Assembly: GCF_025999095.1 (NCBI RefSeq)
Contig: NZ_AP024678.1
Location: 1,147,527-1,211,526, forward strand
Direction: 5' to 3'
Source: Thermosynechococcus sp.
GTDB taxonomy: Bacteria > Cyanobacteriota > Cyanobacteriia > Thermosynechococcales > Thermosynechococcaceae
DNA length: 64,000 nucleotides
The position numbers were made by a program, and so were the translations under genes. Below the pieces are notes generated by a model. The model did not search any database. It was not told the origin of the DNA and saw nothing but the letters and a program-made list of their open reading frames with translations. How positions within the stretch are numbered: the first letter of the stretch is position 1; the number at the start of each line of letters is the position of its first letter. Of the stretch, positions 51,993 through 54,461 are shown one piece after another.

Positions 51993-52006
51993 TTTTAGCC
52001 ACTGGC

Positions 52007-52036
52007 ACTAACTTAGAAGGTACTAACTTAGAAGGT
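52007..52036. repeat. 15-bp perfect tandem duplication
   Basis: ACTAACTTAGAAGGT occurs twice in direct succession between the zinc-ribbon gene and the nuclease-ParA gene, at the left boundary of the accessory-looking module. Confidence 0.93.
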
Positions 52037-52056: not shown

Positions 52057-53430
52057 ATGCCTAGGGGTAACGAAGCCGAGATTGAGCGGAAGATAGTCCT
52101 ACCTTTGTTAAAGGCATGGAGCTACACATCTTCAAACTATTGGATCAAGCCAAAGCTAGGGAATGGCTATCCCGATTTTCTAATTTGCTTGCCTCTGGCG
52201 GGCGATCGCTCCTTCAATTACCTTGTTATTGAGGTCAAATCTGCAAATGAGTCAAGGCTCAGCGGTCAGCAGCAACTGCGGGGATATATGACAGCAGCTC
52301 AAGCGGTTTTTGGCCTCCTAATTAATGGTAAAGATTACCAACTCTTTTATCAAAATCCCCTAAAAAAGCCCCTGTGCCAAATCAAGTGCGCCGCCGGCCA
52401 GTTGGATCGAAAAAGCATTCAAAAACTGACCAAGGTACTGCACCGCAATGCTGCTGCAGCGATCGTGAGCCTCTTAACCCAAGAGCAACTCAAGGTTTAT
52501 CATCACTTTGAAAAAGTATTGCAAAAAAAATTTGCTTTTCCCTTAACCTATCCTCAGGGAAATTCAAATTCCATGATTATTACTGTCTTTAATCATAAAG
52601 GGGGAGTGGGGAAAACAACCCTTACCCTAAACCTAGGTGCTGCCTTTGCTGCCATGGGCAAGCGCGTGCTACTCATTGATATTGATCCGCAGTCGAATCT
52701 GAGCATTGGTTTAGGCATTGATCCCCTGAAGGATATTGAGGATCAAGGCAGGAAAGACATCGTTCACCTCCTCTTAGAACCAAAGGTCACCCTCGAGGAA
52801 GTCGTCTATCGAAAGCGTTGGGACAATCTCCGCTTAGACGTTGTCCCCTCCCACATTCGCCTCGCAGACCAAGAACCCGACCTGATTAGGACAATAGATA
52901 TCGATCGCGTCCTGCAAAGAAAGCTAAGAAACCACCCCTACGATGTCATCCTAATTGATCCACCCCCTGCCTTCGGTAAAGTCAATGCCATTGCTTTGAT
53001 GGCTTCCCATGGGGTTCTGATTCCGATAGAATTCGCCCCTTACCCCATACGGGCGATTGAGTATGTCTTGGCGCGCCTAGAAGCCTTCAGACCTGTAATG
53101 GATAACCCGCCGCGGCTTCTGGGTATTGCCGTTAATAAGTACGATCGCAAGAACTCTGCTGTCAATGCACAGATGCAAGAGAGGCTGCAGGGTATCCTTG
53201 GGAGAGTAGCTCGCGAGTATGCCGTCGTTTGTAATCTCTTGCCTAAAGACACGTGGATTCCTAAGCGCGCTGCTATAGAAAAAGCAACAGATTTACAGCA
53301 ACCCATATTTAGCAGAAATCTATATACGGAATTATCAAGAGCAGATCAAGAATCAATTGATGAGCTAACGGCAACATTTGAAAATTTGGCGCGCCATCTT
53401 TCCACTGAAGCAGTTGCACAGCATGAGTAA
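52057..53430 (+). CDS. PD-(D/E)XK nuclease-like domain fused to a ParA-type ATPase
   Basis: 457 residues. Residues 1-110 resemble the HsdR-N/restriction-endonuclease-like domain: early acidic helix EAEIERKIVLPLL, then YPDFLI (Asp40), YLVIEVKS (Glu59, Lys61) and QQQLRGYMTAAQAVFGLLIN (Gln motif). From about residue 173 it is a ParA/MinD ATPase: HKGGVGKTT (deviant Walker A), LLIDIDPQSNLS (A'), VILIDPPPAFG (Walker B). An internal ATG at 52573 could yield ParA alone. Its end overlaps the ParB-like gene by eight bases. The Lys- and Ile-rich, more AT-rich coding suggests transfer. Plausible as partition or defence; function unproven. Confidence 0.82.
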   Translation: MPRGNEAEIERKIVLPLLKAWSYTSSNYWIKPKLGNGYPDFLICLPLAGDRSFNYLVIEVKSANESRLSGQQQLRGYMTAAQAVFGLLINGKDYQLFYQNPLKKPLCQIKCAAGQLDRKSIQKLTKVLHRNAAAAIVSLLTQEQLKVYHHFEKVLQKKFAFPLTYPQGNSNSMIITVFNHKGGVGKTTLTLNLGAAFAAMGKRVLLIDIDPQSNLSIGLGIDPLKDIEDQGRKDIVHLLLEPKVTLEEVVYRKRWDNLRLDVVPSHIRLADQEPDLIRTIDIDRVLQRKLRNHPYDVILIDPPPAFGKVNAIALMASHGVLIPIEFAPYPIRAIEYVLARLEAFRPVMDNPPRLLGIAVNKYDRKNSAVNAQMQERLQGILGRVAREYAVVCNLLPKDTWIPKRAAIEKATDLQQPIFSRNLYTELSRADQESIDELTATFENLARHLSTEAVAQHE

Positions 53431-54211
53431 ATCCAACAGACTCTCAAGGTACCTTGGTCTATACGATGTGCATCAGGGTCAGGTGCACATTGATCTCCTG
53501 AAAGTTCCCGCTGACTATCCCCAAGAGCTACTGTATGTTTCACCAACCTTGATCCGTGAGGATCTAGAAAAGTACCAGACCAACCTGATTCCCCTAATTA
53601 TTCGCTCAGTCACCACCCAGGCAGGGGATGTAGAGTACGAAGTTGTCTTTGGCAAGGAAGTTGTGGACTTTGCTCGGGAATTGGGAATTAAGCAGTTGTG
53701 GGCCACCAGAGTTGACCTGGCGGATGACCAAGAAGTTTCAGATTTCCAAGAGCGTATCAAAATGCTGATGCAAATCAATGCCCAAGGGCATTCCTCTCAA
53801 CAGGAAGGGTCCTACTTACAGTCGCCCCTGTCAGCCTCAGAATTCGCGCACATCCTCGATCGCTCTCTACAACCGCTCAAAAAACAGATAGACAGTATCC
53901 ATCAAGAAATGACTGTGCAATCGCAGCAGGTGATGAATCTCTCAGAACAAATTAAAACCCTTAGCAACATCCTAGAGTCATCCCCAACCCGATCACAAAA
54001 CCGGCGAAATATTCGCATCAACAGCTATAGAGATGCTGAGAGTCTTAAGAAGCGTGTTCCGGGATTGACTATCGATGAGGCTCAGGTTGTGATTGGACGC
54101 CTCGAAAGGTATAGAAACCACCAAGGGGGTAGAAAATTTCGTTCCGTTGATGAGTTGAAAGAAATCGCCCCCTCAGGCCAGTGGGATGCTCTCAGCATTT
54201 GCTTTAATTAA
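53423..54211 (+). CDS. ParB-like protein with C-terminal helix-hairpin-helix segment
   Basis: 262 residues, with start MSKSNRLSRYL at 53423. The N-terminal 100 residues look like a ParB/Srx domain: LYVSPTLIREDL, NLIPLIIRSVTTQAGDVEYE then VVFGKEVVDFARELGIKQLW and ATRVDLAD. The middle is a coiled-coil-like stretch (LDRSLQPLKKQIDSIHQEMT through LSEQIKTLSNIL). The end, SYRDAESLKKRVPGLTIDEA then QVVIGRLERYRNHQGGRKFR and SVDELKEIA, resembles a ComEA-type helix-hairpin-helix DNA-binding unit. Partner of the upstream ATPase by overlap. No parS site is identified. Confidence 0.72.
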   Translation: MSKSNRLSRYLGLYDVHQGQVHIDLLKVPADYPQELLYVSPTLIREDLEKYQTNLIPLIIRSVTTQAGDVEYEVVFGKEVVDFARELGIKQLWATRVDLADDQEVSDFQERIKMLMQINAQGHSSQQEGSYLQSPLSASEFAHILDRSLQPLKKQIDSIHQEMTVQSQQVMNLSEQIKTLSNILESSPTRSQNRRNIRINSYRDAESLKKRVPGLTIDEAQVVIGRLERYRNHQGGRKFRSVDELKEIAPSGQWDALSICFN

Positions 54212-54248
54212 GCGAGTTACCGCGGGCACAGTTACTCAAGACCTTCTT

Positions 54249-54410
54249 CTAAAGCTCTAAAGTGGGAGGGATGGCAATTTGCGGATTATCCGTGACAACC
54301 ACCCGTGCCAAAGTGGGGAGACAGTCTTGATCAGCGGCGAGGTAAACTGGTTCAGCATCGAGGAGCGATCGCTCGATAGGAATAATAAAAAAATAAAGTT
54401 CACCGTCAAA
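54249..54410 (-). pseudogene. Relic of the C-terminal end of a UPF0182-family membrane protein
   Basis: An open minus-strand stretch without a start codon translates to FDGELYFFIIPIERSLLDAE, then PVYLAADQDCLPTLARVVVT, then PQIAIPPTLEL and a stop. From memory this matches the C-terminal block of UPF0182 (LLVIPIEeSLLYVEPvYLqA...LPeLkRVIVa...PTLE). The remaining 800 or more residues are absent: tRNA-Pro lies immediately 5' of it. Probably what is left of a gene removed by rearrangement. Confidence 0.7.
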
Positions 54411-54461
54411 GCGCAGAAAGAGAGCGATCGCCCTAAGCCCGGTCTTGAACCATTCTCAGAA

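Follow-up and report, generated by a model that had tools for sequence, protein, structure and literature searches.

A predicted HsdR-type nuclease fused to a ParA ATPase forms, with a ParB-fold partner, a patchily distributed two-gene unit of cyanobacterial chromosomes

Here we report a two-gene unit, present in a 64,000-nucleotide stretch of DNA from Thermosynechococcus sp. (hereafter the window), in which gene A carries an HsdR-N-type PD-(D/E)XK domain with a conserved active site, cleavage itself being predicted, ahead of a complete ParA ATPase, and gene B encodes a protein with a ParB-type fold (Table 1). We read the unit as a chromosomal ParA/ParB-fold module that may deliver an HsdR-type nuclease to DNA. 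Its most likely use would be DNA exclusion, and we hold this reading to be close to, though short of, an even bet. As far as sequence can speak, the reading is supported by the domains, the conserved active sites, the operon and the conserved internal start; within it we infer two products, cleavage, contact between ParA and B, a target and a benefit. The domain layout had been put forward in an original prediction made from the letters of the window; three findings go beyond it, namely a start codon inside A where ParA begins, natural variants without the nuclease, and an end of B that is swapped between helix-hairpin-helix and Rho_N or SAP.

Table 1. Features of the A-B unit and its right-hand edge, in window coordinates.
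Feature	Position	Strand	Basis or remark
Gene A, long product, HsdR-N-like nuclease plus ParA, 457 aa	52057..53430	+	ORF and domain searches, AlphaFold2 (AF2) model
PD-(D/E)XK (HSDR_N_2-like) domain, residues 1-158	52057..52530	+	Pfam matches of relatives, AF2, Foldseek, PHROG
Predicted catalytic Asp40 codon	52174..52176	+	D in 105/105
Predicted catalytic E59-x-K61 codons	52231..52239	+	E and K in 105/105
Shine-Dalgarno-like AGGGAAA upstream of internal start	52556..52562	+	Weak in window copy, -4.6 kcal/mol
Predicted internal start codon ATG (Met173)	52573..52575	+	ATG/GTG in 104/105 fusions, Shine-Dalgarno peak centred there
Predicted short product, ParA alone, 285 aa	52573..53430	+	Shine-Dalgarno analysis; natural nuclease-less genes begin here
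Deviant Walker A KGGVGKTT, residues 181-188	52597..52620	+	K181 and K186 invariant in 106/106, Soj fold
Gene B, 262 aa	53423..54211	+	At +1, same strand, in 104/106 loci
B ParB/Srx-fold domain, residues 7-123, GERR motif replaced by GKEVV	53441..53791	+	Structure comparison
B coiled coil, residues 138-186	53834..53980	+	Long helix in AF2 model
B helix-hairpin-helix-like end, residues 196-261	54008..54205	+	AF2 model; HHH_3/HHH_5/HHH_6 in relatives
tRNA-Pro(GGG), edge of variable segment	54462..54535	-	Synteny of other strains resumes at about 54460 (tRNA 3' end)

The original prediction had placed an HsdR-N-like nuclease signature at the N-terminus of A, and both the fold and the active site held up once relatives and a structural model were considered. 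The N-terminus of the window copy falls under the Pfam cut-offs (VRR_NUC, 1.2e-3; PDDEXK_3, 2.5e-3; HSDR_N_2, 0.13), its HSDR_N_2 score reaching only 12.8 bits against a curated cut-off of 25 and against 26.7-35.9 bits in several relatives; HSDR_N_2 is matched at an E-value of 0.01 or better by 33 of the 34 relatives. In the AF2 model (pLDDT 85.5) the domain displays the alpha-beta-beta-beta-alpha-beta order of the PD-(D/E)XK fold, and D40 and E59-x-K61 lie on strands of the core. Foldseek matches of the A model include a viral HsdR-N protein (E 1.4e-4), the domain matches the PHROG 4225 endonuclease, and a sequence search of the PDB returned weak matches only (BpuSI, 0.075; an HsdR, 0.13). 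D40, E59 and K61, together with E6, Y77 and G86, are unchanged in all 105 A genes that have the nuclease domain. This invariance of the predicted catalytic residues argues for strong selection on the nuclease, and since the members of one deep subfamily (II, see below) are only 24-27% identical to the window copy, it does not stem from recent ancestry. The remainder of A is, as had been proposed, a complete ParA (residues 171-457; Pfam AAA_31/ParA at 174-345, E 7e-40) that aligns with Soj structures at a VIA Z of 33.5 and an rmsd of 1.9 over 251 residues; the motif residues K181, K186, D208 and D210 are present in 106 of 106 A genes.

At the boundary between the two halves, the codon is ATG in 102 of the 105 fusion genes and GTG in two more. 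Met is found there in 96-98% of copies, against 17-55% for the best residue at each of the ten preceding columns of a poorly conserved linker. Median pairing energies with the anti-Shine-Dalgarno (anti-SD) sequence are -4.3 kcal/mol for the internal start, -4.05 for the true starts of B and -1.5 for other internal Met codons (internal start versus other internal Met, p 3e-10; p 2e-12 with one gene per genus). The SD signal peaks on the Met173 codon, and synonymous recoding of the upstream residues with codons from the same gene fails to reproduce it (z -8.3, 0/200); the signal peaks again 36-48 nt further downstream, where Walker A is encoded, and this is due to the glycine codons of that motif. 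A conserved start codon accompanied by an SD signal beyond what the amino acids need suggests that gene A probably makes ParA alone as well as nuclease-ParA, so that armed and unarmed forms would come from one gene. The case for a dual product is stronger for the family than for the window copy, whose SD is weak. An account in which A makes one protein, the Met and its SD-like sequence being left over from the fusion, required by the structure or serving to pause translation, is in keeping with that weak SD (-4.6 kcal/mol) and with the absence of a 4-mer SD match from about half of the fusion junctions (56 of 105 have one). We nonetheless consider it improbable: a start-type codon follows an unconserved linker in 104 of 105 fusions, both Val replacements at this position are GTG with a good SD while the lone ATT copy lacks one, and the peak on the Met exceeds the synonymous expectation.

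Natural genes that lack the nuclease begin at the equivalent of Met173 (loci L077, of subfamily I, L158, L154, L156 and similar). At L158 (4076-5871), a pair of nuclease-less ParA and ParB-fold genes stands beside coaX, where near relatives carry the fusion, and further such pairs were found at L077 (7872-8720), L154, L156, L157, L159 and L160. On a tree of the ParA domain the nuclease-less genes nest among the fusions, a pattern read most simply as repeated loss of the nuclease. The retention of ParA-B in lineages devoid of the nuclease indicates that cutting would not be the sole role of the unit. At L155 (5839-9103) we also observed a tandem of two nuclease-less ParA-B pairs, the second B being apparently truncated.

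The description of B as a protein with a ParB/Srx-like N-terminus, a coiled coil and a helix-hairpin-helix (HhH) end, already contained in the original prediction, was borne out by the AF2 model and by structure comparison. Residues 7-120 fit ParB N-domains at a VIA Z of about 12 (12.3, rmsd 2.7, 97 residues to ParB 7bm8), and the structural relatives of this domain are ParB, Noc, KorB, PadC and Srx. The window B has no Pfam match of its own; ParB_N is matched by 17 of the 35 B partners in subfamily I and by 31 of the 37 in subfamily II. The CTP-binding GERRxxA motif was found in none of the B proteins examined, which carry GADWxxVA or GKEVVxFA in subfamily I and GHFEYYAA-like sequences in subfamily II, and a ParB-like sliding clamp therefore cannot be assumed. 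Likewise, the model does not contain the central parS-reading helix-turn-helix (HTH), the coiled coil being followed by the HhH-like end, and an HTH profile weakly matches one of 37 relatives. The C-terminal ends vary, from HhH in some relatives to Rho_N or SAP in others, and such exchangeable ends suggest that B retains its ParB-type fold while the DNA-side domain varies. No convincing array of parS or iteron repeats was detected at the operon, a search that a single parS might escape. Just upstream of A (window 52004-52033) lies a 15-bp direct repeat, GGCACTAACTTAGAA / GGTACTAACTTAGAA, which may be an operator or due to chance.

A full-length profile of A was run against 390 cyanobacterial genomes and, with a scan of GTDB contigs added, 106 unique A genes were compared. 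Near-full-length A is encoded in 92 of the 390 genomes (about 23%) and is uninterrupted in 90 of them, one of the other two having an internal stop (G121) and the second lacking the first 63 positions (G100). The A genes fall into two deep subfamilies, I and II, on the tree. B lies directly downstream of A in 104 of 106 loci, most commonly at a spacing of -4, and the junction is usually a 4- or 8-bp overlap or a gap of a few bases; the 8-base overlap noted originally for the window was found again. The pair is therefore patchy, with its nuclease residues conserved, rather than universal in cyanobacterial chromosomes as an ordinary partition system, an outcome that the original prediction had also considered. 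About 100 cyanobacterial loci conserve the unit, which excludes chance and with it a fortuitous ORF or domain resemblance. Outside cyanobacteria, matches in the GTDB contig scan span only the ParA part, with no N-domain, and searches of 72,556 plasmids and 50,697 phages yielded no A of full length. A plasmid partition system was rejected, the plasmid records covering only the ParA part of A and matching neither B nor the N-domain, as was a phage gene, 80% of A being covered by no phage record, B being unmatched and two weak ParA matches on viral contigs being all that was found.

Apart from B no neighbour is constant, none occurring in more than about 20 loci. In several families another ParA, about 294 aa long and in divergent orientation, stands beside the pair (L096, 6097-6981; L210, 3280-4164; L230, 4792-5676; and similar); it was dismissed as a third component, since it adjoins about 20 loci but is missing from most. 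The 137 neighbours compiled from about 46 genera, a set with no matched background, are mostly housekeeping genes with a few PADLOC matches (SspH, mads, MkoA, PDC-S03). Neither A nor B gave a specific match to the PADLOC 2023 models, only partial ones to PDC-M28B (Walker region) and LmuB (coiled coil). The plasmid or phage exclusion that had been suggested for the pair is thus a role that we infer against mostly housekeeping surroundings and with no PADLOC match. Synteny is long-lasting in some clades, as in one genus where the unit lies beside coaX.

Movement of the unit, in line with the horizontal acquisition proposed originally, is supported by its varied location within the genus, by one strain with a distantly related copy and by two strains that lack it. 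As had been noted, A and B are more AT-rich than their surroundings (G+C of 0.47 in both genes versus 0.54 in the window) and lie close to tRNA-Pro. In three Thermosynechococcus genomes the pair is found between leuA/Zn-ribbon and tRNA-Pro; in other genomes it lies elsewhere, and in two Thermosynechococcus genomes it is missing, with no other clear ParB present, from which it follows that A-B is not the essential chromosome partition system of the genus. The window genome has no further clear ParB, and one weak 96-aa match may be a sulfiredoxin. In strain G010 the copy of A shares only some 40% identity with that of the window and clusters with other cyanobacterial families, a divergence and grouping that point to transfer or differential loss; host families are intermixed on the A tree. 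Three side observations concern these loci. The segment between B and the tRNA-Pro 3' end (54212-54461) is not conserved, consistent with an insertion or rearrangement there; next to the pair of G010 (L149, 10125-12629) a gene resembles, as judged by eye, one for an N6-adenine DNA methyltransferase or type IIG enzyme; and a sister genome has, elsewhere, a lone remnant of a B-like HhH end (L044, G002:C1:594401-594577).

Estimates of dN/dS are 0.26-0.46 for A and B, 0.03-0.16 for leuA and three genes past tRNA-Pro, and 0.20-0.32 for the adjacent Zn-ribbon gene. Frameshifts, in-frame stops and an internal deletion have broken the fusion in various cyanobacteria, at L162, L161, L239, L267, L269, L270 and L262. 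The break sites of the split A genes differ (an in-frame TAG, indels, a deletion), which argues against programmed frameshifting and makes these genes look decayed.

To our knowledge, the roles described for ParA/ParB systems lie in moving DNA or other cargo, not in cutting. KorB, the partner in RK2, is a ParB of the canonical type, having both the HTH and the CTP motif. The RK2 parA gene, incC, yields two forms through alternative starts, and these forms mix, which improves DNA binding (PMC2666795). The IncC1/IncC2-KorB system of RK2/IncP-1 is thus akin to A-B in having long and short ParA from in-frame starts, the short form being predicted here, and a ParB-fold partner (PMC2666795), but its IncC1 extension is not a nuclease and the system is plasmid-borne. 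With the Soj/ParA-Spo0J/ParB (ParABS) systems A-B shares the ParA fold (Z 33), the deviant Walker A and the N-domain fold of ParB (Z about 12); in contrast to them it has a nuclease on ParA, a B devoid of GERR and HTH and ending in HhH or Rho_N/SAP, a patchy distribution and no parS array that we could see. It is the missing ParB CTP motif and HTH that set A-B apart from ParABS proper. The N-terminal nuclease of type I restriction HsdR (HSDR_N/HSDR_N_2) resembles that of A in its PD-(D/E)XK fold, motif order and the Pfam match of relatives, whereas the ATPase of A is a ParA rather than a helicase motor and no methyltransferase or specificity subunit (HsdM/HsdS) accompanies it, B being the only constant neighbour. 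McdA, the cyanobacterial ParA that positions carboxysomes, is also similar to A (Z about 30), but it scores lower than Soj structures and carries no nuclease, and the partner here is ParB-fold. Fusions of the ParB-CTPase fold, described by Kaljevic et al. 2025 (PMC12704722), likewise join a ParB fold to varied domains; a text search of that article found HNH and methyltransferase fusions and no HsdR or ParA-like fusion. Each part is therefore known, and in the literature covered, which included few subscription journals, we found no description of a nuclease-ParA fusion, of the strict two-gene form or of the conserved internal start; to that extent the combination is new.

On the reading that we favour, three proteins would probably be made from the two overlapping genes, namely B and two forms of ParA, with and without the nuclease. 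Driven by ATP and bound to DNA, ParA and B would act as a surveying pair in the general manner of ParA systems, with ParA-ATP dimers coating DNA and B binding DNA through its HhH or Rho_N/SAP end and stimulating or recruiting ParA. Mixing of long with short ParA would then deliver nuclease in limited amount to B-bearing DNA, most likely for cutting or excluding DNA that does not belong. The fuller picture of a DNA-interference machine, in which a ParA/ParB-fold pair has its own nuclease, the dose is set by two starts and ParA molecules with and without the nuclease assemble together on DNA, we regard as possible and somewhat short of likely.

Exclusion fits best a pattern that is patchy, mobile and decaying and is combined with strict catalytic conservation. 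Counted against it are the lack of an apparent defence-island enrichment among the 137 neighbours, the lack of a fitting PADLOC family, the clade-long synteny, the nuclease-less ParA-B and the missing CTP motif; with no apparent defence-island context and nuclease-less ParA-B persisting, a role in genome maintenance stays alive. In polyploid cells ParA-B would in that case move copies of the chromosome or pair them, and the nuclease would process ends or tangles in segregation or repair, foreign DNA not being the target. Such a role agrees with a unit that is chromosomal only in the plasmid, phage and genome data examined, lies among housekeeping genes with clade-wide synteny, survives without its nuclease and evolves under purifying selection (dN/dS). 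Yet the unit is confined to 92 of 390 genomes, is missing from two Thermosynechococcus that have no other clear ParB, is broken in several genomes, mixes families on its tree and evolves faster than most flanking genes, and we therefore judge maintenance unlikely, if worth serious consideration.

Two further alternatives concern the nuclease domain. It might bind DNA without cutting it, as part of an otherwise ordinary ParA that serves partition or positions cargo, in the manner of the RK2 IncC1 extension: N-terminal extensions of ParA are generally tied to DNA binding (PMC2666795), the dual start recalls IncC1/IncC2, and nuclease-less versions occur. DNA binding alone would not need D40, E59 and K61, which are invariant in 105 of 105 copies across subfamilies of 24-27% identity, and this explanation appears quite improbable. 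More improbable by a clear step is a self-toxic nuclease restrained by B, as in toxin-antitoxin or abortive infection systems. A compact, overlapping operon with a nuclease would suit it, but the presumed toxin comes first in the gene order, ParA-B is kept after clean loss of the nuclease, when an antitoxin would be useless, and remnants of broken A or B exist.

A restriction-type site that is fused to ParA and kept across cyanobacteria, in a family that seems to make both ParA forms from a single gene, would link partition with DNA destruction. The functions would be separable by a single change, in codon ATG173 or in a catalytic residue, and the unit may bear on the poor transformability of some cyanobacteria.
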